From Desulforegula conservatrix Mb1Pa (GTDB taxonomy: Bacteria > Desulfobacterota > Desulfobacteria > Desulfobacterales > Desulforegulaceae), in the NCBI RefSeq assembly GCF_000426225.1, contig NZ_AUEY01000021.1, positions 1-60,430 of the forward strand: a stretch of 60,430 nt of DNA, written 5' to 3'. Positions 30,881 to 44,513 of the stretch are shown one piece after another. How positions within the stretch are numbered: position 1 is the first letter of the stretch; every line of letters begins with the position of its first letter. The notes under the pieces were generated by a model, which made no database searches, had not been told where the DNA came from, and worked only from the letters and a program-made list of their open reading frames with translations. The translations under genes and the position numbers were made by a program.

Positions 30881-31087
30881 TCAGTATTATTTGAGTTTGC
30901 TGCCACCCATCAATCCCTAATCAACTTTGCAGTAACGCTGCAAGAATTAGAGCCGTAAACAAATCTCTATCAGACAGGATCTTTCAACCAATAAGCTATC
31001 TGTAAAGCTCTTCATTTGACGGCAATAAATCTGCGTGATAAAAGACGTTCAAAGAAAGCGTTCTTGAATCAATAGTTGGGTCAATAA

Positions 31088-31115
31088 TTGGATCATCAAT
31101 CTGTGCATATATAAT
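31088..31115 (+). promoter_or_regulatory. Candidate sigma70 promoter for the YchF-like gene
   Basis: TTGGAT (31088-31093), a 16-base spacer and a perfect TATAAT (31110-31115) lie just ahead of AGAGGAC and the ATG at 31137. The leader would be short (about 15 bases). It was found by eye. Confidence 0.5.
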
Positions 31116-31136
31116 AAATAGACAAAGAGGACAGTT

Positions 31137-32204
31137 ATGAAAGTCGGAATAATCGGTCTGCCGCAAACAGGAAAAAAAGCCATGTTTACCGCGCTAACAG
31201 GTTCTGAAATACCTGAGCATGTTCAGATCACAAAACCAATGCCTGGCTCGGCTGATATTCTTGATCCAAGATTCGACGCACTTGTAGCAATGTATGAGCC
31301 CAAAAAGGAAGCACACGCAAAAATAGATTTTTCCCTTCTTCCAAAACTTGAAAAAGAAACAATAGCCAAGGGTACCATTTTTCAGGACATAGCCGACATG
31401 GATGCTATCTGCCACATAGTCAGGGCATTTGAAAATGAATCGGTTTTTCATATAGACGGAGACGTGAACCCGCTCAGGGACATTGAATCGATAAATTCAG
31501 AACTCATCCTCCATGATCTTGTTTTCATTGAAAAGCGCCTCGAAAGAGTCGAGGCGAACATGAAGAAAATCAAAGATGAAAACAACAAAAAAGAACATGC
31601 CCTTCTCACAAGAATGAGAGCCCATCTTGAAGCCGAAAAACCACTCAGGCACATGGAAATTTCAGACGAAGAATGGACATTCATCAGAAGCTATCCATTC
31701 ATAACCCTGAAGGAAATGGTAATTGTTCTGAATGTAGGAGAAAATGAAGTTAAGACAGAGCCATCCCAGGCCATAAAAGATTTCTGTGAAAGGGAAAAAA
31801 TCGCTCTTGTAAGCATCTGCGCAGGAATAGAATCCCAGATCGCATTGCTTGATGATCCTGAGGAAAAGCAGGTTTTCATGGATGATCTTGGAATTGAAGA
31901 ACCTGCGCTTGGAGTTCTTACAAGAAGCTGCCTTAACGCCCTTGGCAAAATATCATTTTTTACCGTAGGAAAAGATGAAGTCCGTCAGTGGATTATGAGA
32001 AAAGGAGCTTCTGCGCCGAATGCGGCAGGCACCATCCACTCAGACCTTGAAAGAGGGTTCATTCGTGCAGAGACCATAAAATATGCTGAACTGATGGCTG
32101 CAGGCAGCGAAGCAGAACTTAAAAAGCTGGGCAAAATATATGTGAACGGCAAGGATTATATTGTCGAGGACGGAGATATCCTGAATATAAGATTCAAAGT
32201 CTGA
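31137..32204 (+). CDS. YchF-like (DUF933) P-loop NTPase with divergent G1 motif
   Basis: The 355-residue protein has the layout of YchF/OLA1: P-loop domain, helical insertion (about 130-185, Lys/Glu-rich coiled coil), second half of the G domain and a TGS/DUF933 domain (about 275-355), with KISFFTVGKDEVRQW, GTIHSDLERGFIRAE and GKDYIVEDGDILNIRF. The G1 motif reads GLPQTGKKAMF, with Lys where YchF has Ser or Thr after GK, and the usual GEGLG stretch is absent. The NVGE segment (about 201) may stand for the ATP-preferring NxxE motif. It is probably a YchF paralogue whose nucleotide binding is altered or lost. AGAGGAC precedes the ATG. Confidence 0.85.
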   Translation: MKVGIIGLPQTGKKAMFTALTGSEIPEHVQITKPMPGSADILDPRFDALVAMYEPKKEAHAKIDFSLLPKLEKETIAKGTIFQDIADMDAICHIVRAFENESVFHIDGDVNPLRDIESINSELILHDLVFIEKRLERVEANMKKIKDENNKKEHALLTRMRAHLEAEKPLRHMEISDEEWTFIRSYPFITLKEMVIVLNVGENEVKTEPSQAIKDFCEREKIALVSICAGIESQIALLDDPEEKQVFMDDLGIEEPALGVLTRSCLNALGKISFFTVGKDEVRQWIMRKGASAPNAAGTIHSDLERGFIRAETIKYAELMAAGSEAELKKLGKIYVNGKDYIVEDGDILNIRFKV

Positions 32205-32235
32205 TCCGGTTCTGCGTTATTCTCCAGTCAAAGAT

Positions 32236-32260
32236 ATGGGGCTATTTGAAGAAGCCCCAT
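32236..32260 (+). terminator. Hairpin after the YchF-like gene
   Basis: ATGGGGCT pairs with AGCCCCAT over a nine-base loop, 32 bases after the stop codon. There is no U-tract, so a terminator is plausible but not certain. Confidence 0.45.
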
Positions 32261-32311
32261 TACCTCCAATAAAACATCATATTTTCATATAAATTAGTAA
32301 ATCACAGGTCT

Positions 32312-32441
32312 CATACCATTTTCAAACCAAAGATGAAATCAAGGCGGCAAGGAGGAAGCAACTCAAACGTACGTGGTTTGTACGTTGAGGAGCTGATGAC
32401 GATGCCAACATATATAGCGCTTTGATTTGGAATTGGTATCA
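32312..32441. repeat. Imperfect inverted-repeat element E
   Basis: Left end CATACCATTTTCAAACCAAA and right end CTTTGATTTGGAATTGGTAT are imperfect inverted repeats about 130 bp apart. An inner palindrome reads CTCAAACGTAC and GTACGTTGAG. I saw no second copy in the window. It lies between the convergent YchF-like and MFS genes. Confidence 0.5.
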
Positions 32442-32455
32442 CATCCCAAAACCGT

Positions 32456-34006
32456 TTACTCAAGAGGCACATCCTCGACAGCGCTTTTCCCTGCTGTTCT
32501 GAGCAGAAATACAAGAGGGATGGTTATGACAAAAAGAAGTGAAACCAGGAAATAGACTCTGTTGAAAGAAAGCATATATGAGTGCTTATCCACAAATCTG
32601 CCCAATACTTTTATGGCCTGCTGATTTGCAGTGACAACGTCCGTGCCTTTTGAAATCATCAATTGCCTGATACCAGCAATCCATTTTGTGGACTCTGTAC
32701 TGTAAGCTGAAATGTTTTCCATCAAATGTGTCCTGCTGGTCATATACCCCCTTGTCAGAAAAGTAGCTGAAAGGGCTATTCCAATACTTCCGCAGACCTG
32801 ACGCACAACATTGTAAAGGCCTGTTGCAGCTGTCATCTGCTCTCTTAAAACAGTCGAAAGGGTTACAGTACTGACGGCAACAAAAGCAAGTCCAAGCCCA
32901 AATCCCTGAAAGATTTGCGGCAACAAAAGTACCCCGAATGTTGTGTCAGTAGTCAGAAAAGCCATTTGCCCAAAAGCGACAGCACTTATTAAAAGACCTG
33001 TTATTATAAGGGGTTTGGGGCCAATCTTGTTATAAAGCCTCCCGCCAAGCGGCATGGCAAAAGCCATGGCAAGGGCTCTCGGCATTATTATCAGGCCGGA
33101 ATCATAAGCTGGATACCCAAGCAGCTGTTGAAGAAACATTGGCAGAAGAAAGAGACTGGCGTATAGTCCCATGCCAAGAGCTCCACCGATAACAGTTCCT
33201 GAAGCAAAGGAAAAATTTTTAAGAAGTCTCAGATCAACAGCCGGTTTTTCCGTGGTAAGTTCTCTCCTGACAAAAAGCAAAAGTCCTGAAATGGATATTA
33301 TCGCAAGCCAGATTATGAATCTTGAGCTGAACCAGTCCTTTTCCTGCCCTTTTTCAAGCATGAGCTGAAGCGCTCCAAGCCCTATTACCATAAATCCAAG
33401 ACCTGGCCAGTCAATTTTCCCTTTTTCCCTGACAAGATAAGGCGGATCTTCAAGGTAACGGATAACCATGATAAGATTAATAATTCCAAGCGGAATATTG
33501 ATGTAAAAAATCCAGGGCCATGAATAATGGTCAGTGAGCCATCCGCCAAGCGTTGGGCCAAATGCAGGGCCCAAAATCACCCCAAGGCCAAAAATCCCCA
33601 TCGCTGTCCCCTGCTCTTCTGGTTTGAAGTTTTCCCTGAGAATTGCCTGGGAAAGCGGAGTGATCGCACCTCCGCCTATTCCCTGCAAAACTCTGAAAAA
33701 AACGAGGGAATGAAGACTTCCTGCCAGTCCGCAAAGCAGTGAAGTTAATGTAAAAAGGGAAACCGAAAAAAAATAGAAATTTCTGCGTCCGAATCTGGCA
33801 CTGAGCAAAGCGATGATCGGCATAATTATAACATTGGAAAGGATAAACCCAGTGGAAACCCATGTAATTTCTTCAACTGATGCTCCAAGATTCCCCCTCA
33901 TATATGGCAGGGCAACATTGACAATGCTTGTATCAATGGCATTCATCATTGTCGCAAGCATTACTGTGATGGTTATCATCCACTTGTTCGGAGAAATACT
34001 ATTCAT
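32456..34006 (-). CDS. DHA2-family multidrug efflux transporter (EmrB-like)
   Basis: This is a proton-driven inner-membrane exporter: 516 residues with about 14 hydrophobic helices, as expected for DHA2/EmrB. Motifs are IDTSIVNVALPYMRGNLGAS (helix 1, the D1 motif), LSARFGRRNFYFFSVSLFTL (motif A) and GIGGGAITPLSQAILRENF, then FGPTLGGWLTDHYSWPWIFY (motif C). It is the last of the three exporter genes tolC-emrA-emrB, all leftward; the gap to emrA (about 310 bases) contains repeats B and C, which might separate its expression. Confidence 0.93.
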   Translation of the reverse strand: MNSISPNKWMITITVMLATMMNAIDTSIVNVALPYMRGNLGASVEEITWVSTGFILSNVIIMPIIALLSARFGRRNFYFFSVSLFTLTSLLCGLAGSLHSLVFFRVLQGIGGGAITPLSQAILRENFKPEEQGTAMGIFGLGVILGPAFGPTLGGWLTDHYSWPWIFYINIPLGIINLIMVIRYLEDPPYLVREKGKIDWPGLGFMVIGLGALQLMLEKGQEKDWFSSRFIIWLAIISISGLLLFVRRELTTEKPAVDLRLLKNFSFASGTVIGGALGMGLYASLFLLPMFLQQLLGYPAYDSGLIIMPRALAMAFAMPLGGRLYNKIGPKPLIITGLLISAVAFGQMAFLTTDTTFGVLLLPQIFQGFGLGLAFVAVSTVTLSTVLREQMTAATGLYNVVRQVCGSIGIALSATFLTRGYMTSRTHLMENISAYSTESTKWIAGIRQLMISKGTDVVTANQQAIKVLGRFVDKHSYMLSFNRVYFLVSLLFVITIPLVFLLRTAGKSAVEDVPLE

Positions 34007-34107
34007 TACAGCCCCTGATAAGAATCATAAAGATTGCGTTTAATCCGATTTTTAATTTTAGACTTTGGTTTCATGATTGATGTAGCCGGACCAATATTTC
34101 AAAAATC

Positions 34108-34245
34108 ATGTGCCTTGTATGGTTAAATCGCCGTAAAAAAAGCCGATTCGTAGGGTGCTCAAGCTCTAAGGCTTGCGCACCAGATTCGTGTGCCTCCGGC
34201 GGGTCGCTTTTTTGGAAAAAAGCTCCGCAAAAAACTCATGGATAA
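34108..34245. repeat. Composite hairpin repeat C+B (between emrB and emrA)
   Basis: TTGTATGGTTAAATCGCCGT, TCGTAGGGTGCTCAAGCTCT, then CTCCGGCGGGTCGC and the family B core with an 8-base A/T stem. The order and joints match 1350-1600 and 13968-14150. Its insertion separates emrA from emrB. Confidence 0.6.
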
Positions 34246-34315
34246 TTGATGGTCTAAAAAAGTTCCCCGCAAAAAACAAATCATCCAAAGCAACATAACA
34301 GGCCATGGCATCAAC

Positions 34316-35329
34316 CTATCTCGTAAGTATTGTAGGAACAACGCTCATACCGACCCTTAGGATATGCTCGGTCTGGGCCGCTGAATCTATGACTATTTTA
34401 ACCGGGATTCTCTGAACAACCTTTACAAAATTCCCTGACGCGTTTTCAGGAGGAAGGAGGGCAAACGCAGATCCCGTGCCTGCCATCAGGCTATCAACCT
34501 TACCTTTGAATCTCTTCCCAGGAAAAGTATCGACTTCAAATTCGACATTTTGTCCAGGCTTGACATCTGTAAGCTGGCTTTCCTTGAAGTTTGCGGTAAT
34601 CCAGATATTGCCAAGATCAACAATGCTCATGAGAGCCTGCCCTGGCTGAACAAAATTACCTGGCTCAACAGTCTTTTTTGTTATGTATCCATCTGATGTG
34701 GCATAAATCTTTGTGTGTGAAAGATTAAGCTTGGCCTGGGCGAGCTTTGCCTCTCTCTGGGCAATTTTGGCTTCTTTGCTTCCGTTTTTTGCAAGTCCCA
34801 GATTGGCCTCTTCCCTGTTCAGGCGTCCCTGGATTTCATCAACCTTAGCCTCTGCCACTTTGCAAGCTGTAGAAAGCCTGTCAAGCTGTTCCTTTGGGAT
34901 AACTTCCTTTTCATACAATGACTGCCCACGTTTTAAATCAAGCCTGGCCTGTTCAAATGCAACTTTTGCCTGATCAACGCCTGCCTTTGCGACTTCAATC
35001 TGGGCGTATTCACCAGATGTCTCGTTTTTGGCCATGAGCAGACTTGCCTCAGCTTCCTTGACCTGAACCTCATAATCAGAAGGATCGAGGGCCAGAAGCA
35101 ACTCACCTTTTTTTACTTGTCTGTTGTCATTCACAAAAACATCCAAAACCCTTCCAGGAACACGCGGGGAAACGGTAAATGAATGACTGTCGACAAAAGC
35201 ATCGTCCGTGCTTACACGGTTTCGGCTGTATGTCCACCACCAGATCCCGCCTGAACATCCAACTATTATCAATACTAAAAAAATGACGCCTGCTTTTCCG
35301 TTTTTATCCAGCCCGTTTTTATCCAGCAT
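34316..35329 (-). CDS. HlyD/EmrA-family membrane fusion protein
   Basis: This is the periplasmic adaptor of the tripartite exporter. The start is the ATG at 35329, with GGAGG six bases ahead; a longer frame from 35362 lacks a site. The 337-residue protein has an N-terminal membrane anchor (AGVIFLVLIIVGCSGGIWWW, about 12-31), a barrel-sandwich half (FTVSPRVPGRVLDVFVNDNRQVKKGELLLALDP in two parts), a long alpha-helical hairpin (about 75-200) and the second lipoyl half with IYATSDGYITKKTVEPGN, then the beta-barrel (IWITANFKESQLTDVKPGQN). It links EmrB-like and TolC-like partners. Confidence 0.93.
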   Translation of the reverse strand: MLDKNGLDKNGKAGVIFLVLIIVGCSGGIWWWTYSRNRVSTDDAFVDSHSFTVSPRVPGRVLDVFVNDNRQVKKGELLLALDPSDYEVQVKEAEASLLMAKNETSGEYAQIEVAKAGVDQAKVAFEQARLDLKRGQSLYEKEVIPKEQLDRLSTACKVAEAKVDEIQGRLNREEANLGLAKNGSKEAKIAQREAKLAQAKLNLSHTKIYATSDGYITKKTVEPGNFVQPGQALMSIVDLGNIWITANFKESQLTDVKPGQNVEFEVDTFPGKRFKGKVDSLMAGTGSAFALLPPENASGNFVKVVQRIPVKIVIDSAAQTEHILRVGMSVVPTILTR

Positions 35330-35429
35330 GATTACCTCCACCTTTTTTTGACTTTTCAACATTCAAAAGTATTCTGAGATCATCCGACAATTTTTTGAAA
35401 ATCCATTGTGATGATCATTTGTTTTAATT

Positions 35430-36698
35430 TTACAGATTCCCAGTGGCTTTTTTGATCCTTGCCAAAGCAATTTCCTTATCAAATAAGGCCCTGTAATATT
35501 CAGTTCTCGTATTGGTTAAAAGGGTCTGGGCATCGAGCACATTTGTGGCTGTGCCTGCCTGTTCCTTATATTTATTTACGTTAATTCGAAGATTCTCCTC
35601 TCCCTGCGCAATTGCCCTCGATATTGCATCAATTCTTTTATCCGCAACCTTTGAATCATTGACGGCTGTCTGATATTCAAGTCTCAGACGTTTTTGAAGC
35701 TCCCTCAGGGCTTCCTCATGTTTGAGCAGATTCTTTAAAGCCTGGCTGGTTCTTGAGGTTGTTGCGTAACCATCAAAAAGATTAACTTTCATTCCCACAG
35801 AAGCTGAAAGAATCCCCTGCTCCTCCACTTCCTTGTTCTGCAAATAATCAGCCTGAAGACGGCCAAATACTTCAGGTTTGTAATGGGCTCTGCTCTCCTC
35901 TACTGATCGTCTGTCAGCCTCAATCATACTTTTCATGGCCATGATTTCGGAATGCTTTGAGAAATCAGCGTCAGCAGGATCAGATACAGTTTTACCAGGA
36001 CGCATCGGATCCTCTTCCAGCTCGCCCCTACGACCAGAATCACTCCCTGTAAGAAAATTCATCTGCAACCATCTGTTTTCATGTCTATTTACGACAGAAA
36101 GCCTTCTTTGTCTGCTATTGGCAAGCTGAACATCTGCCTGGAGCACATCATTTTTTGTAGCTACTCCCTGTTCATAAAGGGTTTTTGCTATCTTCAAATG
36201 CTGCTCCATCTGAATAATTTCCTGATCAGCTGCTTTAAGAACTTTTTCGGACTCAAGTATGCCGTAGTAAGACTCAACTACCTTTATAAACAGATCCTGT
36301 TCCTTTGATTTATAACCGAAGGCAGCGGCATCCTTTAAAGCTTCGGCGCGTTTTTTTCTCGAATCAGTTCTTCCGAAATCATAAAGTACCTGGGTCATGG
36401 ATACGCTTCCAGAAGCATATCTTGGCTCCTGCATATCGAGTCCCATTGGGCCGACCTTAATTGACTGGGCTTCGTTCTGGACAGTGTAAGCACTCTGCAT
36501 ATCTACCCTGGGAAGGTATGTGCTGCCTGCAATCCCGATTTCGTCATCCGCAATACTTTCGTTATAGGCAACAACTTTCAGGGATGGATTGTTTTCAGAT
36601 GCGGCTTTAAGACATGAGGAAAGATTGAGTTTTTCTGCATTTGCGGAAAAGGGAAAAATCATCAGATGTAAAATCGCCAGGGTCAGTATTTTTTTCAT
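35430..36698 (-). CDS. TolC-family outer-membrane efflux protein
   Basis: The channel component of the exporter. I place the start at the ATG at 36698, where GGAGA precedes it and a signal peptide follows (ILTLAILHLMIFPFSANAE); the frame continues upstream to 36773 without support. The 422-residue mature-plus-signal protein has the two OEP repeats of TolC: SCLKAASENNPSLKVVAYNE and a second half with AHYKPEVFGRLQADYL and long helical coils. It is the first gene of the exporter operon and lies downstream of the operator at 36802. Confidence 0.92.
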   Translation of the reverse strand: MKKILTLAILHLMIFPFSANAEKLNLSSCLKAASENNPSLKVVAYNESIADDEIGIAGSTYLPRVDMQSAYTVQNEAQSIKVGPMGLDMQEPRYASGSVSMTQVLYDFGRTDSRKKRAEALKDAAAFGYKSKEQDLFIKVVESYYGILESEKVLKAADQEIIQMEQHLKIAKTLYEQGVATKNDVLQADVQLANSRQRRLSVVNRHENRWLQMNFLTGSDSGRRGELEEDPMRPGKTVSDPADADFSKHSEIMAMKSMIEADRRSVEESRAHYKPEVFGRLQADYLQNKEVEEQGILSASVGMKVNLFDGYATTSRTSQALKNLLKHEEALRELQKRLRLEYQTAVNDSKVADKRIDAISRAIAQGEENLRINVNKYKEQAGTATNVLDAQTLLTNTRTEYYRALFDKEIALARIKKATGNL

Positions 36699-36801
36699 TT
36701 CAATTCTCCGATTTAATAAACAGGAACACATCCATGAACCACGTTCAAAACAAGCTGCTAAAAACCATTTCATGCCAGAAAAAAGCCTTTAACTTAACAT
36801 A

Positions 36802-36821
36802 GACAATGATTGTCATGACAA
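36802..36821. promoter_or_regulatory. MarR operator (copy 1), upstream of tolC
   Basis: The 20-mer GACAATGATTGTCATGACAA is the exact reverse complement of the 20-mer at 37309-37328. It contains the perfect palindrome TTGTCATGACAA (36810-36821). It lies about 100 bases ahead of the tolC start and just after the marR stop, an expected place for a repressor. Confidence 0.78.
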
Positions 36822-36850
36822 GTTTAAAGGTAAATTTTTTTTGTGAAATT

Positions 36851-37294
36851 CTATTCCAGATTAGCCCAGATTCTATCGAGCATTCCCATAAAAAGGGACA
36901 TTTCTTCCTCGCTGAAACCCTTCCACGTGTCATCCCTTAGATTAAGGACAAAGGGATAAAGACAGTCGCGCATTTTCCTGCCTTCTTCTGTGAGATATAT
37001 CAAAAAAGCCCGCCTGTCCTCGGCATTATCTACCCTTTTGATAAGGCCTTTGCTTTCAAGCTTGTCAAGAATTCTAGTGGTATTTGGCTGGTCTTTGTAA
37101 AGCCTTGATGACAGCTCTTTCTGGGTGATTCCATCCTCATCCCAAAGCATTGCAATGACACCCCACTGCTCAGGGGTGACATCAAAGGACTTAAGGCGCC
37201 TGCTCATCTGCCCTTTAAAACGGAGTGCGGTCATGCAGATTACAAAACCGGGGGATCTATCCAGATCAAACTTTTTGTCATTTTCATTATTCAT
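36851..37294 (-). CDS. MarR-family transcriptional regulator
   Basis: The product has the MarR winged-helix domain (about 20-120 of the 147 residues): RFKGQMSRRLKSFDVTPEQW, then LWDEDGITQKELSSRLYKDQ, the wing DKLESKGLIKRVDNAEDRRA and FLIYLTEEGRK. The start chosen is the ATG at 37294; upstream ATGs at 37315, 37324 and 37333 are in frame but lie in or beside the operator at 37309-37328, which argues that this stretch is promoter DNA. It is 150 bases ahead of tolC on the same strand and is very likely the local repressor of the exporter and of itself. No ribosome-binding site stands out. Confidence 0.88.
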   Translation of the reverse strand: MNNENDKKFDLDRSPGFVICMTALRFKGQMSRRLKSFDVTPEQWGVIAMLWDEDGITQKELSSRLYKDQPNTTRILDKLESKGLIKRVDNAEDRRAFLIYLTEEGRKMRDCLYPFVLNLRDDTWKGFSEEEMSLFMGMLDRIWANLE

Positions 37295-37308
37295 TGCATA
37301 TGAATAAA

Positions 37309-37328
37309 TTGTCATGACAATCATTGTC
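37309..37328. promoter_or_regulatory. MarR operator (copy 2), upstream of marR
   Basis: TTGTCATGACAATCATTGTC is identical to the inverse of 36802-36821. It holds two overlapping palindromes, TTGTCATGACAA and GACAATCATTGTC, built from three TTGTC/GACAA half-sites. It lies directly upstream of the marR start and would give autoregulation. Confidence 0.78.
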
Positions 37329-37354
37329 AACATAAAAAAATAGAGACTAATGAA

Positions 37355-37489
37355 TGATGGCCTCGCAAAAAGTCCAAAAAAAGCATCGACGTCATGCCGG
37401 ACTTAATCAGGTATCCAATAATTTAAATTACTTATAGACTCAAGCCTTCGCCGGAATGACAGGAATTGAACTTTTTGCGACATTATCAT
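37355..37489 (+). repeat. Dispersed inverted-repeat element A (copy 10)
   Basis: TGATGGCCTCGCAAAAAGTC to CTTTTTGCGACATTATCAT, with a diverged second arm. It lies upstream of marR. Confidence 0.75.
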
Positions 37490-37554
37490 GAATAATTCTG
37501 GAAATTACATCATTCAGTTGCTTTATGATTTGCAGATAAATCGAAGGGGACAAA

Positions 37555-37765
37555 TTTGTTTCTAAAAAAATCCATAAAGTTTTTGCCGAGCTTTTTTCCA
37601 AAAAGCGACCCGGCTGAGGTATTTTCAGATTTATGAAATACTGATCTGCTACAATCAATCAAAAATCCAAATTCTAAAATAAAAATTATGGTGTCGGATT
37701 ACGAGCAAAAACGCTCTAATCCGACCTACTAATTGGCCTTATTTACGGCAATTTAATCATACAAT
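37555..37765 (-). repeat. Inverted B and C hairpin repeats (37555-37615 and 37687-37765)
   Basis: CCATAAAGTTTTTGCCGAGC followed by TTTTTTCCAAAAAGCGACCC is family B inverted. GTCGGATTACGAGCAAAAAC then GCTCTAATCCGACC, a palindrome, is family C inverted. The order C then B is preserved when read on the minus strand, with about 70 bases between. Confidence 0.55.
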
Positions 37766-37795
37766 AATCATCTTTTTTAAAAAGTCTCAAATATT

Positions 37796-38026
37796 TCACT
37801 GGTTTCCATACCCATTCTGCTCACCGCAGTCAGGGCAAACCCATGTAATGCCGTTGCATGAAAGTCCCCATGCGGTTTCCTTCATGCAATCCTGGCAAAT
37901 GGTAAAACCGCATCTGCAATACCAGCTGAAAGAGGATATCACCTTGCAGCAGTGACACGATCTTGTCTTTTGTCTTTCTTTTTTTTCCCTGTAGGACAAT
38001 TTTTTGTTATCCGAAGTATTTTGCAT
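37796..38026 (-). CDS. Small Cys-rich (zinc-ribbon-like) protein
   Basis: A 76-residue protein with ten Cys: SCHCCKVISSFSWYCRCGF, then CQDCMKETAWGLSCNG and WVCPDCGEQNGYGNQ, arranged as CxCC, CxC, CxxC and CxxC pairs that suggest zinc ribbons. The chosen ATG at 38026 lies inside the end of the CoA-binding gene (20 bases of overlap), so translation is likely coupled. A TTG two codons upstream is the alternative start. Function is unknown; the basic N-terminus (KKLSYREKKERQKTR) could bind nucleic acid. Confidence 0.62.
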   Translation of the reverse strand: MQNTSDNKKLSYREKKERQKTRSCHCCKVISSFSWYCRCGFTICQDCMKETAWGLSCNGITWVCPDCGEQNGYGNQ

Positions 38027-38459
38027 ATTCAATCTTGATACATTTGTTCATTATTACGTCAATGCCAGCCGCTACAAGCTTCTCTGCTGCAGCCATGTTT
38101 TCGACTCCGAGCTGCATCCAGAAAACCCTGGGCTTAAGCTTGATGGCCTCTTCAACATGCTCCATCACCTGATCAGAACTTCTGAAAATATCAAGAACAT
38201 CAACCTGTTCTGTAATTTCAGCCGCATTCGGAATTGTCCTTTCTCCAAGAATCTCGATATTCTCAGGCCTGACAGGAATGATCCTGAATCCGTGATTCTG
38301 AAGAAACCTTGCGACTATGAAAGAATCCCTGTCCTGCTTTGGACTTATGCCGACAATCGCAACTGTTTTGGCATCCTCAATTATTTTTTTGATCCTGTCC
38401 GGACTTGTAATTATTTCACCCTTTTTCATAACGTCTCCTTCAGGCAAGCTGCTTGCCAC
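38007..38459 (-). CDS. CoA-binding protein (YccU-like)
   Basis: A 150-residue CoA_binding_2 domain protein with VAIVGISPKQDRDSFIVARF (about 33-52), PVRPENIEILGERTIPNAAE and MQLGVENMAAAEKLVAAGID, the Rossmann CoA-binding pattern of the YccU family. Its ATG follows GGAGACG. Physiological role unknown. The zinc-ribbon gene overlaps its 3' end. polA reads divergently about 110 bases away. Confidence 0.9.
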   Translation of the reverse strand: MASSLPEGDVMKKGEIITSPDRIKKIIEDAKTVAIVGISPKQDRDSFIVARFLQNHGFRIIPVRPENIEILGERTIPNAAEITEQVDVLDIFRSSDQVMEHVEEAIKLKPRVFWMQLGVENMAAAEKLVAAGIDVIMNKCIKIEYAKYFG

Positions 38460-38506
38460 ATTAAAGACTAAATGGTATTAGTTTTCCAACTTGTAATTCA
38501 ACATTA

Positions 38507-38518
38507 TTGTCATGTCAA
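38507..38518. promoter_or_regulatory. Operator-like palindrome between the CoA-binding gene and polA
   Basis: TTGTCATGTCAA differs by one base from the TTGTCATGACAA core of the marR operators. A TGTCATGT/ACATGACA inverted repeat spans 38508-38539. It may be a third regulator site or just a hairpin. Confidence 0.35.
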
Positions 38519-38568
38519 TTTTTTGAACTGAACATGACACCACAATCATCCAACAAGGCGGAAATCCG

Positions 38569-41244
38569 GTGACTGAAAAAACATTCTATATAATCGACGG
38601 AACAGCTTATATTTACAGAGCATATCATGCCATTAGAGAACTCAGGGCATCATCCGGTTTCCCCACAAACGCCATTTTCGGATTCACAAGAACCATTCTG
38701 AAACTTGTTGAAGACAGAAAACCGGAAAAGGCGGTAATGCTTTTTGATACAAAAGGCCCCAATTTCAGACATGAATTATATCCGGAATATAAGGCAAACA
38801 GGCCGCCTGCGCCAGAAGAACTTGTGATGCAGATCCCAAAAATCAAAGAAATATCTGCACTCCTTGGATTCCCGATCCTCGAGATGCAGGGATTTGAGGC
38901 TGATGACCTTGCCGGAACCCTCGCAAAAAAAGCCGAGGCAGATGGTTATAATGTTGTGCTTGTCACCGGAGACAAGGATTTTGTCCAGCTCGTTTCAGAA
39001 CAAACCATCATATGGGACCCCATGAAAGAGGAAACCATTGACCTTGCCTCAGTTCGGGAGAAATTCGGAGTAGAGCCAGATAAAATAATTGAGGCTATGG
39101 GCCTTGCTGGTGACACGTCCGACAATATTCCCGGAGTTCCGGGGATAGGCATGAAGACAGCTCTCAATCTGATCAAGGAATTCGGGGATCTTGAGACCAT
39201 ATATGAAAAGATAGACAAGGTTTCAGGCAAAAAATCAAAGGAAGGCCTTATAAATAACAAAGACAAAGCTTTTTTAAGCAGAAAACTTGTCACCATCGAC
39301 ACTGAAGTCCCCGTCAGTTCAGATATAGAAAGCTTTATCCTGGCCGAGGCGAATAAATCAGAACTTGCTGAAATTTTCAAGGAGCTGGAATTCAGGCAGC
39401 TCCATCAGACATTCCATTCCGTTGCCGAATCTGTTGAGACTGAATGGATTCTGATAAACGACGAAAAAAGCCTTACAGAAATTGTAGAAGAGATTAAAAA
39501 GGCCGGAGAGTTTGCGATTGATACTGAAACGACCTCCACAAATCCCATGATTGCGGATCTTGTGGGCATATCTTTGGGTTTTTCAGATGAGAAGGCCTAC
39601 TACATCCCTTGCGGTCATGATTATGAAGACGCTCCCAAACAGATGTCCATAGAAACCATCAAGAATATTATCACCCCAATATTGACTGATCCTTCTTTAA
39701 GAAAGACGGGACAGAACATCAAATATGATCTCATTATTCTTGAACGCCATGGGTTCGAACTTGCTGGGCCAATCTTTGATACAATGGTCGCGTCTTATCT
39801 GATAAGCCCTGACAGCAGATCTCACGGGCTTGACCAGCTGAGCCTCGATTATCTCAATCATAAAAACATCACTTTTGAAGAAGTGGCTGGCAAAGGCAAA
39901 AGCCAGATTCTTTTCTCAAAGGTTCATCTTGACAAGGCTGTTCCATACGCTTGCGAAGATGCATGGGCAACATTCATGCTTAGAAACAAATTAAAACCTC
40001 TGATGGAAAAAGATGATCTTGTCCCGCTTTTTGAAAATATCGAAATGAACCTCCTCCCTGTCCTTAAAGACATGGAAAAAAAAGGGATAAGAATAGACAC
40101 GGACAGGCTTGAATCCCTTGGTCTTGAAATGGGGACAGAACTTTCTGCCCTGGAAGAAACAATATACGAACTTGCAGGATCTGAATTCAATATCAAATCC
40201 AGCCAGCAGCTTGGAGAAATTCTTTTTGAAAGGCTCAAGCTTCCTGTACAGAAAAAAACCGTAAAAAAGACGGGCTTTTCAACAGACGCTGATGTTCTTG
40301 AAATTCTTTCTGAGTATCATGATCTCCCAAAACAAATCCTCAGACACAGAACCCTCAGCAAACTGAAATCAACATATATTTCAGCTCTTCTTGAAATAAT
40401 GCTCCCTGAAACCGGCAGGATTCACACATCATTCAACCAGACAGCCGCAGCCACAGGCAGGCTCAGCAGCTCTGAGCCAAATCTTCAGAATATCCCGATA
40501 AGGGGCGAGGACGGCAAAAAAATCAGGGAAGCATTTATTCCAAGAGAAGGCTGGACATTCATCTCGGCTGACTATTCCCAGATAGAACTAAGAATGCTGG
40601 CCCATCTATCAGGTGACGAAATTCTCATAGAGGCTTTTGAAAAAGAAGAGGACATCCATTCAAGGACAGCTGCCGAAGTGTTTCAGGTTTTCCCTGAAAT
40701 GATGACACCTGAACTTAGGCAGCAGGCAAAAGCCATAAATTTCGGAATAATATACGGAATGGGCGCTTTCAAGCTTTCAAAGGAACTCGGAATAAGCCAG
40801 AAAATGGCCGCAACCTATATCGAGCATTATTTTGCGAGATATAAAAAGGTCAGGGAATTCATTGACACCAACACAGCTCTTGTCAGGGAAACCGGGAAAA
40901 TAAGAACAATATCAGGCAGAATAAGAAAATTCCCGGACATAAACAGCAGCAACAAAAATATCCGCGCCATGGCTGAAAGAGCTGCCATAAACACCATAAT
41001 TCAGGGAAGCTCGGCAGATCTTATAAAAATCGCCATGATCAACATGGATCGTATGCTCAAGGAAAAGGGCCTGAAGACAACAATGCTTCTGACAGTTCAT
41101 GACGAACTTTTATTCGAATCCCCTCCGGAAGAAACAGAAACAGCCCTGAAGCTTATTGCAGAAATTATGGAAACTGTATTTGACCTGAAAGTGCCGTTAA
41201 AAGTCAATATCAGTACTGGCAAAAGCTGGGCAGAGGCTCATTAG
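38569..41244 (+). CDS. polA: DNA polymerase I
   Basis: The 891-residue enzyme acts in Okazaki-fragment processing and repair. The 5'-3' exonuclease (about 1-290) has YPEYKANRPPAPEE, GFEADDLAGTL, TGDKDFVQL and GDTSDNIPGVPGIGMKTA. The 3'-5' exonuclease (about 300-490) keeps DTETTS, NIKYDL and YACEDAWAT, so proofreading residues appear retained. The polymerase (about 510-891) has motif A SADYSQIELRMLAHLSGD, motif B RQQAKAINFGIIYGM and motif C TVHDELLFE. The start is GTG at 38569. It is complete and monocistronic. Confidence 0.97.
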   Translation: MTEKTFYIIDGTAYIYRAYHAIRELRASSGFPTNAIFGFTRTILKLVEDRKPEKAVMLFDTKGPNFRHELYPEYKANRPPAPEELVMQIPKIKEISALLGFPILEMQGFEADDLAGTLAKKAEADGYNVVLVTGDKDFVQLVSEQTIIWDPMKEETIDLASVREKFGVEPDKIIEAMGLAGDTSDNIPGVPGIGMKTALNLIKEFGDLETIYEKIDKVSGKKSKEGLINNKDKAFLSRKLVTIDTEVPVSSDIESFILAEANKSELAEIFKELEFRQLHQTFHSVAESVETEWILINDEKSLTEIVEEIKKAGEFAIDTETTSTNPMIADLVGISLGFSDEKAYYIPCGHDYEDAPKQMSIETIKNIITPILTDPSLRKTGQNIKYDLIILERHGFELAGPIFDTMVASYLISPDSRSHGLDQLSLDYLNHKNITFEEVAGKGKSQILFSKVHLDKAVPYACEDAWATFMLRNKLKPLMEKDDLVPLFENIEMNLLPVLKDMEKKGIRIDTDRLESLGLEMGTELSALEETIYELAGSEFNIKSSQQLGEILFERLKLPVQKKTVKKTGFSTDADVLEILSEYHDLPKQILRHRTLSKLKSTYISALLEIMLPETGRIHTSFNQTAAATGRLSSSEPNLQNIPIRGEDGKKIREAFIPREGWTFISADYSQIELRMLAHLSGDEILIEAFEKEEDIHSRTAAEVFQVFPEMMTPELRQQAKAINFGIIYGMGAFKLSKELGISQKMAATYIEHYFARYKKVREFIDTNTALVRETGKIRTISGRIRKFPDINSSNKNIRAMAERAAINTIIQGSSADLIKIAMINMDRMLKEKGLKTTMLLTVHDELLFESPPEETETALKLIAEIMETVFDLKVPLKVNISTGKSWAEAH

Positions 41245-41264
41245 CGAGACATTCACATAATACT

Positions 41265-41398
41265 GGTGGTGTCGCAAAAACTCAAAAAATGGCAACGGCG
41301 TCATGACGGACTTTATCCGCCATCCCTTAATTTCAGCTAATTCTGAATTCCGGTATGCGCCGGAATGACGGAAATAAGACTTCTTGCGGTCTTGCCAA
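41265..41398 (+). repeat. Dispersed inverted-repeat element A (copy 11)
   Basis: It lies directly after polA: left end GGTGGTGTCGCAAAAACTCA, right end TTCTTGCGGTCTTGCCAA. The gap 41399-41750 holds the promoter area of the next gene. Confidence 0.75.
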
Positions 41399-41644
41399 TA
41401 TTGGGATTCTTACTGATCTTTCATCACAAACTGTCCAATTTAATCAGTCTATTCTGTTTTATTGAGAGACGATTTCCCCACTGATTTATGTTCCATAATC
41501 AAAAACACCATTCCTGAATGCAACCAAAAAAGAGAAACCAAGTTCCTATTACTAATCAATACTTAAGCTACGTCAAATTGTTTATCTATATATTATCTTT
41601 TAGTAATAAAAAACATCTTAATTATCAGTAAGTTAATAAAACAT

Positions 41645-41673
41645 TTGATTTTTATAGGCATTAGAAATATAGA
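41645..41673 (+). promoter_or_regulatory. Candidate sigma70 promoter of the CoA-transferase gene
   Basis: TTGATT (41645-41650), a 17-base spacer and TATAGA (41668-41673). The predicted start of transcription, about 41680, is upstream of the FNR-type box. It was found by eye and lies in a very AT-rich stretch that offers other possibilities. Confidence 0.4.
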
Positions 41674-41724
41674 ACCATTCTACTATATCAATATATAAAT
41701 ATTTCTTTTTTTCATAATAACTTA

Positions 41725-41738
41725 TTGATTTAAATCAA
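41725..41738 (+). promoter_or_regulatory. FNR/CRP-family binding site
   Basis: TTGATTTAAATCAA is a perfect match to the FNR consensus TTGAT-N4-ATCAA, and wholly palindromic. It ends 12 bases before the ATG at 41751 and, with the candidate promoter upstream, is placed downstream of the transcription start, where a regulator would repress rather than activate. Confidence 0.65.
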
Positions 41739-41750
41739 ATAGGTGATCAC

Positions 41751-43103
41751 ATGAAAGTTTTGGACAGTTGGCAGTATCAGCAAAAACTGATTACTCCTGA
41801 TGAAGCGGCTAAAATCGTAAAATCAGGCGACAATATCTTCTATAGTGAATTTGCTCTTTTTCCCGAGGCACTCGATGCTGCGCTTGCCAAAAGACTGGAT
41901 GAACTCGATGGCATAGAAGTTTCAAGCATTTGTGTCACAAGGGTTCCAAAGGTTGTTGAGGCTGACCCTGAAAGAAAAAAAGTGATATTCAATGACTGGC
42001 ATTTTGGGGGGACTTCAAGAAAACTGCACGACAAGGGATTATGCAATTACATTCCCTTCACCTATCATCAGGGGCCAAGGGTTGTAAAAAAATACATAGA
42101 CTACGATGTCGCATTTATTGCTGTCAGCCCTATGGATCCGAGGGGTTATTTCAACTTTGGACTGTCAAATTCCATAACATCTGGAGTGATCAACAAAAGC
42201 AAAAAGATTATTCTTGAGGTTAACAGAAACATACCTCACTGTCTTGGCGGAAATCAGGAATCCATACATATTTCCAGGGTGAATTATATTGTTGAGGGCA
42301 ACCATAATCCAATGCCCCAGCTTCCTCCTTCAAAATCCACTGATACAGAAGTACAGATCGCGGAACATATAATGAAAGAGATTGAAGATGGTGCCTGTCT
42401 TCAGCTTGGGATTGGCGGACTACCTAATGTAATAGGCGGCATGATTGCGGACAGCGATTTAAAGGATATCGGGATTCATACAGAAATGCTTGTGGATTCA
42501 TTTGTAGATCTATACACAGCAGGAAGAGTTACCGGAGCCAAAAAAAATATAGACAAATACAAGATGACCTACACCTTTGCACTCGGCACAAACAAACTCT
42601 ACGACTTCCTGCATCACAACCCGACATGCGCGTCATATCCGGTAAGCTATACAAATGACCCCAAGATAATCGCAATCAATGAAAAGGTTGTAGCTGTAAA
42701 CAACGCTATTGAAGTGGATCTTTTTAGCCAGGTCTGCTCGGAATCAGCAGGAACAAGACATATATCAGGTACAGGCGGCCAGTTTGACTTCATATTCGGG
42801 GCTTTCGGATCCAAGGGCGGCAAAGGAATAATCGGAATCAACTCAACATATACGGACAAGAACGGCAATTTGAAATCCCGTATTGTGCCGACTCTGACCC
42901 CAGGATCAATCGTCACCCTTCCGAGATCAATAGTTCAGTATGTTGCCACAGAATTCGGAATAGTTCAGCTTAAAGGAAAATCCACCTGGAAAAGAGCCGA
43001 GGCTCTTATCAGCATTGCCCATCCTGATTTCAGGGATAACCTTATAAAAGAAGCTGAAAAAATGAATATATGGGTAAGCAGCAATAAAAAGGACGGAGAA
43101 TAA
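41751..43103 (+). CDS. Acetyl-CoA hydrolase/transferase-family CoA-transferase
   Basis: A 450-residue family-1 CoA-transferase related to 4-hydroxybutyrate and butyryl-CoA:acetate CoA-transferases, which move CoA between carboxylic acids. The N-terminal half has LITPDEAAKIVKSGDNIFYS; the C-terminal half has LQLGIGGLPNVIGGMI, the catalytic-Glu region SQVCSESAGTRH, and SGTGGQFDFIFGAFGSKGGK. The acceptor substrate is undetermined. AGGTG precedes the ATG. An FNR-type box overlaps the leader, suggesting oxygen- or redox-linked control in this organism's fermentation or fatty-acid metabolism. Confidence 0.9.
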   Translation: MKVLDSWQYQQKLITPDEAAKIVKSGDNIFYSEFALFPEALDAALAKRLDELDGIEVSSICVTRVPKVVEADPERKKVIFNDWHFGGTSRKLHDKGLCNYIPFTYHQGPRVVKKYIDYDVAFIAVSPMDPRGYFNFGLSNSITSGVINKSKKIILEVNRNIPHCLGGNQESIHISRVNYIVEGNHNPMPQLPPSKSTDTEVQIAEHIMKEIEDGACLQLGIGGLPNVIGGMIADSDLKDIGIHTEMLVDSFVDLYTAGRVTGAKKNIDKYKMTYTFALGTNKLYDFLHHNPTCASYPVSYTNDPKIIAINEKVVAVNNAIEVDLFSQVCSESAGTRHISGTGGQFDFIFGAFGSKGGKGIIGINSTYTDKNGNLKSRIVPTLTPGSIVTLPRSIVQYVATEFGIVQLKGKSTWKRAEALISIAHPDFRDNLIKEAEKMNIWVSSNKKDGE

Positions 43104-43192
43104 GAGCGCATCTTCCATCTTTTGATGAACATCAAAGCCTTTTCCCCACAAAAGAGGAAATAATGCCCAAAACATGTATTCCCTCTTAAAAG

Positions 43193-43225
43193 AAGGAGAA
43201 GCCATGATACTCATGGCTTCTCCTT
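43193..43225. terminator. Terminator hairpin between the CoA-transferase and DUF3617 genes
   Basis: AAGGAGAAGCCATG pairs perfectly with CATGGCTTCTCCTT (14 bp) around a five-base loop. It is 89 bases after the CoA-transferase stop and between convergent genes. The weak following T-run leaves the mechanism open. Confidence 0.65.
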
Positions 43226-43397
43226 ATAAACATTTCTATGCCGTGATCATCCCTATGGGGAATTTCAAAATGGAACAGAGCTTTGAAATAGCTACGCCCA
43301 GGCTCAAAATAGTCACGGTTCAGATTTAGGAGACTTTCTGCTTCCTATATCTGTCAAAATCCGCGTGTCCACCGGCAAGACCTGCGAACAGCCTAAA

Positions 43398-44513
43398 TTA
43401 ACTGCAAGCGCCGATGCGTCGTCCGCTCATCTGGATGGTATAATTGCCGCAACTGCTTTCGATGGTCAAATTTCCTGAAAAAGTATCGCCACTGTAAGTA
43501 ACTGTTCCATTATACGTGGACTGGCCGCAGTCCTCACTTTGGCAAACAGAACTCCAGGTAATCGTATTTCCGTTTACAACAGGAGTCGTCGAAGTACAGG
43601 TCGAATCTCCTGTATCAGGAGTGGAATCATTTTGTGTAAGGCATTGAGTGGTGGTTCTTGTAATAGGAGGCATACCAGGAACACCCTGCATGGTCGTGGT
43701 AATCTCCCACATACCGTCATTCATATCAACAGACGTTTGTCCGCCGCTTCCGCTTTCGGCAACAGACACAGCCGTGCCTATAATCGGAAGAGCAGCAGGT
43801 TCGCTGTTCGGATCTGAGACAGCCCTTGCAACCACCACGTAGCTGCCTGCAGATGGAAAGACAAACTTGCAGGAGTTTGCGGTGGAATAATCCTTAACCA
43901 TTGTCCATGGCGAAGTCGAATAGGAAGATGTTCCGTAATTCGGGCAGTAATAGAACCTGTAGTATACAGGCGCTCCGGTAAGAGTTGACGCCGAGGCTGT
44001 GAATGTGACCTCCTCACCTGCCCTTGGCGTAGATGAGCTTGAGGATAATGCGGTAATATTTACCTGACCCAATTCAGAAACGGTTACAGCCTGGCCAACT
44101 ATGGGCAATGCATCTGGTTCGTTATTAGGATCAACGACCGCCCTTACAACCAATATATAATTGCCGGCCTGGGGAAATGAATACTGGGCGCTGCTATCAG
44201 TCGAATATTCCTTAACAACTGTCCAGGGTGTCGTATCATAGGAAGAGGATCCATAATTGGCGCAGTAATAATATTTATAATAAACTGTTTTTCCACTGGC
44301 GCAGGAACCACTTACATTTACTGTCAAAGGTAGACCGACCTGCGGAGGTATGGCTGGCGAAAGACTGAACTGGGTGACATTAACCACATCTTCTGATGGA
44401 ACTGATCTCGCAGAAGATTTTTGGTCAATTCTGCGGTCATTATCCGATTCCGCATAAGCTGTTAAAGCCGGCAGAACAAAGCATAAAAATAACAAAATCA
44501 TTCTTTTTTTCAT
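43398..44513 (-). CDS. Exported protein with two ~80-residue repeats and a DUF3617 C-terminus
   Basis: The start is the ATG at 44513, with GGAGGCGTT before it and a signal peptide after it (MILLFLCFVLPALTAYAES); a frame continues upstream to 44561. The 371-residue protein has two tandem beta-rich repeats, with YYYCANYGSSSYDTTPWTVV and FYYCPNYGTSSYSTSPWTMV as equivalent stretches, each followed by an RAV.DPN.EP.ALPI.G.AV. motif. The C-terminal 110 residues resemble DUF3617 (DGMWEITTTMQGVPGMPP, then Cys-rich NGTVTYSGDTF). Function unknown; the periplasm or surface is likely. Confidence 0.82.
   Translation of the reverse strand: MKKRMILLFLCFVLPALTAYAESDNDRRIDQKSSARSVPSEDVVNVTQFSLSPAIPPQVGLPLTVNVSGSCASGKTVYYKYYYCANYGSSSYDTTPWTVVKEYSTDSSAQYSFPQAGNYILVVRAVVDPNNEPDALPIVGQAVTVSELGQVNITALSSSSSTPRAGEEVTFTASASTLTGAPVYYRFYYCPNYGTSSYSTSPWTMVKDYSTANSCKFVFPSAGSYVVVARAVSDPNSEPAALPIIGTAVSVAESGSGGQTSVDMNDGMWEITTTMQGVPGMPPITRTTTQCLTQNDSTPDTGDSTCTSTTPVVNGNTITWSSVCQSEDCGQSTYNGTVTYSGDTFSGNLTIESSCGNYTIQMSGRRIGACS

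Follow-up and report, generated by a model that had tools for sequence, protein, structure and literature searches.

The window analysed here, a 60,430-nt stretch of the Desulforegula conservatrix Mb1Pa genome, contains two copies of a 20-bp element arranged as an inverted pair around a gene for a MarR-family regulator. We conclude with good confidence, as the explanation that best accommodates the data as a whole, that both copies (termed O1 and O2) serve as operators for the MarR protein whose gene they flank and would switch off marR as well as the adjoining exporter genes. The duplication of the element, the restriction of its exact core to this locus, the conservation of that core with one specific group of regulators, its conserved position and a conserved partner palindrome 15 bp away are all directly observed. 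In agreement with the preliminary description, which had placed one site directly ahead of marR and the other ahead of tolC, all genes of the locus lie on the minus strand, with O1 5' of marR and O2 between marR and tolC (Table 1).

The product of the regulator gene (P0001) scored 61.4 bits against the family model PF01047 (cut-off 24.6), placing it within the MarR family, and its closest solved chain was 8xt8 (E 2e-24); no paper for 8xt8, 8xta or 8xu0 was found in the open-access literature. It scored below the narrower models for EmrR/MprA (NF008122; 41.2 bits, cut-off 157) and for MarR proper (PRK11512; NF008565; 42.8 bits, cut-off 240). An alternative ATG at 37333 would put O1 within a longer marR frame; homologues favour the start at 37294. 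The tolC-like product reached 170 bits with the OEP family (PF02321), indicating an outer-membrane factor in the operon, and 138.2 bits with the TolC-specific model TIGR01844, below its cut-off of 225.15. Likewise, the emrA-like product carries HlyD Pfam domains and stays under the cut-off of the EmrA/EmrK model TIGR00998 (288 versus 390.8 bits), and the emrB-like product stays under that of the narrower EmrB model NF000391 (343.2, cut-off 925). Upstream of marR, at 37358-37492, lies one copy of a REP/MITE-like repeat family of ~130 bp with inverted ends, for which at least 41 matches at 77-100% identity were found in the genome (40 of 512 first-look candidates scored), the full number probably being higher. 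What by eye resembles a second, diverged member lies after polA, at 41263-41400; it is absent among the matches listed.

Table 1. Features of the marR-exporter locus, in window coordinates.
Feature	Position	Strand	Location	Description
emrB-like DHA2 MFS transporter gene	32456-34006	-		TIGR00711 468.6 bits, cut-off 230.2
emrA-like HlyD-family adaptor gene	34316-35362	-		Pfam HlyD_D23; TIGR00998 288 bits
tolC-like outer-membrane efflux protein gene	35430-36698	-		Pfam OEP E 6.3e-50; GGAG-type ribosome site before ATG
Operator O2 (predicted)	36802-36821		marR-tolC gap	20-mer inverted; core 36810-36821, third half-site 36802-36806
A8/T8 tract	36835-36842		between marR stop and O2	T7-9 tract at this stop in several relatives
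marR (P0001)	36851-37294	-		147-aa MarR-family winged-helix regulator; Pfam MarR E 7.6e-17
Predicted marR promoter	37302-37330	-		-35 TTGACA 37330-37325; O1 core in spacer; weak -10
Operator O1 (predicted)	37309-37328		upstream of marR	perfect 12-bp palindrome TTGTCATGACAA 37309-37320 plus third half-site 37324-37328; same distance to marR in relatives

Direct comparison of the two elements confirmed that GACAATGATTGTCATGACAA at 36802-36821 (plus strand) is the exact reverse complement of 37309-37328, and that each copy holds three TTGTC/GACAA half-sites, both as originally proposed. With up to three mismatches allowed, the window has just two matches, O1 and O2, against 0.01 expected, and the inverted arms of the two copies stretch to 23 nt at 96% identity. 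The centre of the O1 core lies 20 nt ahead of the marR start and that of the O2 core 35 nt past the marR stop, with the end of O2 lying ~100 nt before the tolC-like ATG. Throughout the assembly (4,466,430 bases, 178 contigs, 96.4% complete), the perfect core TTGTCATGACAA occurs at two sites, both at the marR locus, which gives the pair, within the D. conservatrix genome, the appearance of a signal private to this locus; the composite pattern TTGTCNNGACAANNNTTGTC also has two perfect matches, which are O1 and O2. Sites one mismatch away from the core number 40 in the assembly, two of them in the window, compared with 12 matches in all for a mirrored control pattern, an excess that stands without explanation. 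By a crude ORF test, 35 of the 40 fall inside open frames of at least 100 codons and five outside, and at up to three mismatches the composite yields counts of 110 and 125, not above the control (134 and 137); on these grounds a wider regulon for the core was not adopted. One site differing from the core by one mismatch, TTGTCATGTCAA at 38507-38518, is intergenic, in the divergent gap before polA, and is readable as a minus-strand TTGACA -35 box.

Conservation was assessed at 124 MarR loci, window and near-duplicates included, scoring an upstream zone within 130 nt of the gene, with start codons assigned by a script favouring ATG, the presence of a ribosome site and agreement with the expected length. 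The searches with the MarR protein covered 58 relatives, 389 genomes of the order (E 1e-13 or better), 395 genomes of the phylum (E 1e-22), one class reached via G511 and again via G450 (244 genomes each, E 1e-28, nearly identical answers) and a scan of named genomes (20 loci); strict E-value limits and a maximum of the best 30 loci per search make this a set of best-scoring loci rather than a sample of all MarR genes. Among these best-scoring loci, a core of at least 9/10 was present upstream of marR in 30 of 50 homologues at 110 bits or more, in 1 of 17 at 93-110 bits, in none of 54 below 93 bits and in 3 of 3 from Listeria. When the close homologues were thinned to below 80% protein identity, window included, 16 of 29 retained a core of at least 9/10 and 13 fell below it (Fisher p 1e-9 for 16/29 against 0/54, the 54 distant loci being unthinned); at the 8/10 level the counts were 23/29 and 10/54. 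Four MarR paralogues from the same genome (L035-L038), which belong to the 54 distant loci, reached 6 or 7 of 10 upstream. Three of the 16 matches (L118, L120, L126) have a TTGACA -35 box as the right half of the scored core. Lack of the motif upstream of the same regulator in relatives had been named beforehand as evidence against the proposal, and the close homologues show the motif to be conserved there.

The sequences found at this position vary by lineage. In Geobacteraceae homologues (49% identity) the site reads TTGTCGTGACAA, TTGTCACAACAA or TTGTCACGACAA, its centre lying 20-22 nt ahead of marR; TTGTTGTGACAA precedes the gene in 7 of 12 Rossellomorea and Bacillus loci, and the exact core is present in all three Listeria loci, whose proteins are weak matches (32-33% identity) on a long branch that the tree places with other Bacillota rows. 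Across the loci compared, the core accompanies this MarR group in Thermodesulfobacteriota and Bacillota, with differing neighbours.

The -35 hexamer of the predicted marR promoter starts 36 nt before the marR ATG, which is not preceded by a Shine-Dalgarno sequence, and its weak -10 was read as TTTATT (37308-37303) by the scoring script, or alternatively as TTATTC one base on. By score, the O1 promoter in the window is not above shuffled flanks (p 0.21), its position being conserved in relatives, and a simple consensus scan gave other hexamers (ATGACA-18-AATAAT, 37315-37286), with three promoter-like sites against 3.6 expected. Across the loci, a TTGACA-like hexamer starts 9-11 nt ahead of 18 of 35 upstream sites of at least 8/10, near relatives included, which places these sites in the promoter spacer, and in a further 8 the scored 12-mer overlaps TTGACA itself. 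As a group, upstream sites coincide with promoters beyond shuffled flanks (Stouffer 7.9, n=19). Within 20 hand-picked loci, the distance from the start of the hexamer to the ATG is 36 nt in the window, L071, L073, L092, L121, L124 and L130, and 34-38 nt in L072, L127, L132, L133 and L135, all lacking a Shine-Dalgarno sequence. This absence correlates with operator distance: of 50 loci with an upstream site, a Shine-Dalgarno sequence was missing in 15/16 with the operator centre at -17 to -24 and present in 30/34 with the centre further away (non-redundant loci: absent in 9/10 near, present in 15/18 far; Fisher p 3e-4). A -35 hexamer ~36 nt before the ATG together with the missing Shine-Dalgarno sequence, in the window as in relatives, leads us to predict a leaderless marR mRNA, the message probably starting at or next to its own ATG.

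A second site after marR was likewise observed in relatives. Geobacteraceae homologues carry ATGTCATGACAA, TTGTTATGACAA or TTGTCATGACAA centred 24-25 nt after marR, and the two-site layout is clearest in L071, L072 and L073 of this family, where the sites are 482-484 bp apart, one on each side of the gene. A downstream site of at least 8/10 was found in 18 of 50 homologues at 110 bits or more (11/29 non-redundant), in 1/17 of the intermediate and 3/54 of the distant loci and in 1/3 from Listeria; the remaining 32 of the 50, the close L114, L117, L119 and L120 among them, stayed below 8/10. Further loci with such sites are L044, L006, L091, L118, L121, L124, L125, L131, L127, L132 and L135. The site centres in relatives lie mostly +22 to +52 past the marR stop and in the window's subclade mostly +22 to +27, with the window at +35; L045, L130 and L089, counted as downstream matches in the offset and pairing tests, are probably chance matches. 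With the window left out, upstream and downstream regions of the same locus were more alike than mispaired ones (11.84 versus 11.46 of 16, n=45, p 0.002), a small effect in a test to which five loci (L103, L105-L108) had been added by hand. The protein tree groups the window with the Geobacteraceae set, L127/L132 and L133 at moderate support (83/83, drawn as an open fork), and having both sites at 9/10 requires five changes on it (14 of 500 shuffles were as low), indicating that the two-site state is patchy.

The gene context of these sites follows the marR-tolC-emrAB order of the preliminary description in part. Several relatives have an outer-membrane-factor gene next (L071, L124, L133 and L135, where downstream genes were scanned), whereas the type of pump is not constant, the OEP gene of L071 (Geobacteraceae) being followed by FUSC, DUF1656 and HlyD genes, not EmrAB. 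The first downstream gene is DsbA-like in L044, TetR in L118 and HlyD in L117, the first downstream ORF found in L125 and L131 is a small one, and L114 and L119, which have no good downstream site, show frames judged DHA2-type by eye that start before the marR stop. Since the downstream genes differ among loci, the site tracks the regulator rather than one pump. At more distant MarR loci (L093, L095, L107, L112, L113), other palindromes of the type AGTTA..TAACT were noticed by eye before and after marR, raising the possibility that the two-site layout is older than the TTGTCATGACAA motif.

Offsets around the main palindrome were analysed in a non-redundant set of 41 out of 64 loci, the 64 comprising 59 at 100 bits or more and five chosen by hand (L007, L100 and the three from Listeria). 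Offset +15 was the highest non-overlapping offset in both site classes. Excluding the window, a partner palindrome at +15 bp scored 6.08/10 for downstream sites (2.45 expected, n=12) and 4.68/10 for upstream sites (2.54 expected, n=28), each with p 2e-4, the floor of 5,000 draws. Offset -15 was also raised upstream (3.89 versus 2.55), at least partly due to the -35 hexamer, as were +14, +16 and -16 (p 0.01-0.02), and -16 was raised downstream (4.46, p 2e-4), where T tracts lie. Examples of the tandem are TTGTCATGACAA-TTA-TTGCCACATCAA in L073 and TTGTCATAACAA-CAG-TTGTTGCCACAA in L006. By eye, L046, L100 and L007 share a 14-bp spacing as a group. The window's partner palindrome consists of one intact half-site plus remains, scoring 6/10 at O2 and 8/10 at O1, where it overlaps the -35 box. 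The operator unit across homologues is a pair of palindromes 15 bp apart, of which the second survives in the window, partly decayed, as the third half-site. This third half-site is indeed present at both copies, as had been claimed; at O1 it overlaps the -35 hexamer TTGACA and is therefore not readable there as operator alone. The earlier idea that two dimers could bind gains support from the conserved tandem.

From these positions, a MarR dimer on TTGTCATGACAA at O1, between -35 and -10, would exclude RNA polymerase from the marR promoter. A second dimer could bind 15 bp away, on the nearly opposite face of the DNA, and its affinity would be lower because the window's second palindrome is partly decayed. 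MarR at O2 would control the entry of polymerase into tolC-emrA-emrB, constituting a second check after the repressor gene. By analogy with the family, an exporter substrate would presumably release MarR and thereby induce marR and the pump jointly.

The manner in which O2 would act can be read in several ways. A weak internal promoter is the likeliest target, at about even chances. As a group, the downstream sites do not share a significant sigma70 promoter (Stouffer 1.4, n=15; window z 0.47) in a test of 15 hand-picked loci that includes near relatives and leaves out L045, L130 and L089. We rank second, as a possible but less probable mode, a roadblock in which polymerase arriving from the marR promoter is halted by MarR bound shortly past the gene, keeping the exporter below the level of the repressor. 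Such an action would fit O2-type sites that are conserved yet not promoter-like as a group, and the narrow placement of the downstream site past the marR stop in most loci of the subclade. It would also fit the T or A tract of at least six that 12 of 16 hand-picked loci with a downstream site have no more than 25 nt from the marR stop; T tracts of at least six near the stop occur in 11 of 16 loci with a downstream site versus 8 of 49 others at 93 bits or more (p 2e-4) and 9 of 57 below. However, some relatives have plausible O2 promoters (L135, p 0.035; L072 and L091, p 0.055; L116, p 0.09; L073, p 0.11), a T/A tract could equally be an upstream promoter element, and the window has an A tract (A8), not a T tract. 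T7-9 tracts at or a few nt from the marR stop were seen in L071-L073, L092, L121, L124, L125, L127, L131, L132 and L135. An intrinsic terminator at the end of marR was rejected, the hairpins before the T tract being weak in 24 of 25 loci folded (-1.1 to -8.7 kcal/mol; L103 -12.9; without shuffle controls); no terminator-like site was found in 36600-37800 of the window, with 0.9 expected. A repression loop joining O1 and O2, as between lac O1 and O2, appears improbable: the distance between the two operators of one transcription unit is 475-535 bp at 16 of the 17 loci measured and 590 bp in L091, but its helical phase appears scattered rather than conserved (0.0-0.95 of a turn, with the window at 0.52; 17 loci, near-duplicates included, four with an uncertain upstream site), and tetramers of MarR dimers are not known. 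The small probability left by the internal promoter and the roadblock goes to looping or other roles. Only tentatively do we extend the roadblock to a widespread, undescribed design, in which a leaderless MarR mRNA with the operator as promoter spacer is followed by a promoterless copy of the paired operator near an A/T tract, the second operator lying at a nearly fixed distance past the marR stop codon and serving as a repressor-dependent roadblock. If true, such a design would allow separate repression levels for repressor and exporter genes within one transcript.

Two further readings question the assignment of the pair to MarR itself. That the sites belong to a different regulator, such as a GntR-type protein, and are present here by accident, would be compatible with short TTGTC/GACAA-like palindromes not being unique to MarR proteins and with the excess of one-mismatch core sites over the mirrored control; we consider it very unlikely, as the core tracks this MarR group in two phyla despite different neighbours, is absent at 9/10 from the distant MarR loci, and most of the one-mismatch sites lie within open frames. 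Least credible to us is that marR is the cargo of a small mobile cassette with O1 and O2 as its terminal inverted repeats. The inverted orientation and the long, nearly identical arms would suit this, and a 6-bp direct repeat, AACATA, which would be the target duplication, lies flush outside both copies (36796-36801 and 37329-37334). Yet in other families, alongside other exporters, both positions are occupied by sites that have diverged but can still be recognised, the exact core is absent elsewhere in the assembly, and by eye no transposase was seen among the ORFs listed for 31000-43500, most of them judged on that inspection alone.

MarR autoregulation is textbook knowledge, and in the Escherichia coli EmrR/MprA-emrRAB system the regulator is the first gene of a collinear EmrAB operon that is repressed at the operon promoter. 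As operators of MarR, the pair in the window would belong to a similar arrangement, the regulator being likewise first in a collinear EmrAB-type operon; differences lie in P0001 itself (41 bits against the MprA cut-off of 157) and in an operon that contains an outer-membrane gene and a second operator. The closest functional parallel found is EmrR of Chromobacterium violaceum, described as a MarR-family repressor adjoining emrCAB that binds the emrR and emrCAB promoter regions and represses both, with salicylate relieving the repression of emrCAB (PMC6249546). As presented there, emrR lies near emrCAB and a separate promoter probe served for each target, whereas the genes in the window are collinear with an identical operator on each side of marR; the main text of that paper does not contain the word palindrome (PMC6249546). 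For two dimers, the Rv2887-DNA complex of Mycobacterium tuberculosis offers a structural precedent, described as two MarR-family dimers on 30 bp, 15 bp each, on nearly opposite faces, with only one of the two bound sequences palindromic, a GC-rich site and a proposed indirect readout (PMC5526998); the window differs in its clear palindrome, and its 15-bp partner is suggested by conservation only. SCO3205 of Streptomyces coelicolor is reported to have two separate operators, predicted from the upstream regions of relatives and confirmed by SPR, both in one divergent intergenic region (PMC3737563), whereas those of the window lie on either side of marR. CrtR of Corynebacterium glutamicum, a MarR-type autorepressor with perhaps one binding site, has an mRNA said to be reported as leaderless; it is divergent from its target operon, with no far-side site described in that account (PMC5401885), in contrast to the window, where marR is collinear with the exporter genes.

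Among the titles and abstract openings listed in searches of the open-access literature, no description of one operator on each side of a MarR regulator gene was found, and the sole match to the string TTGTCATGACAA was judged unrelated by its title. MarR autoregulation of exporters, MarR regulators with two operators and leaderless MarR-type mRNAs are already known; the operator on each side of the regulator gene is apparently new. Its occurrence in several families with varied neighbours provides a handle on how repressor and pump levels may be set separately inside one operon. Furthermore, short DNA pieces bearing the 15-bp tandem would allow two-dimer binding by MarR proteins to be tested, and the motif can serve as it stands as a rule for target prediction in this MarR group.
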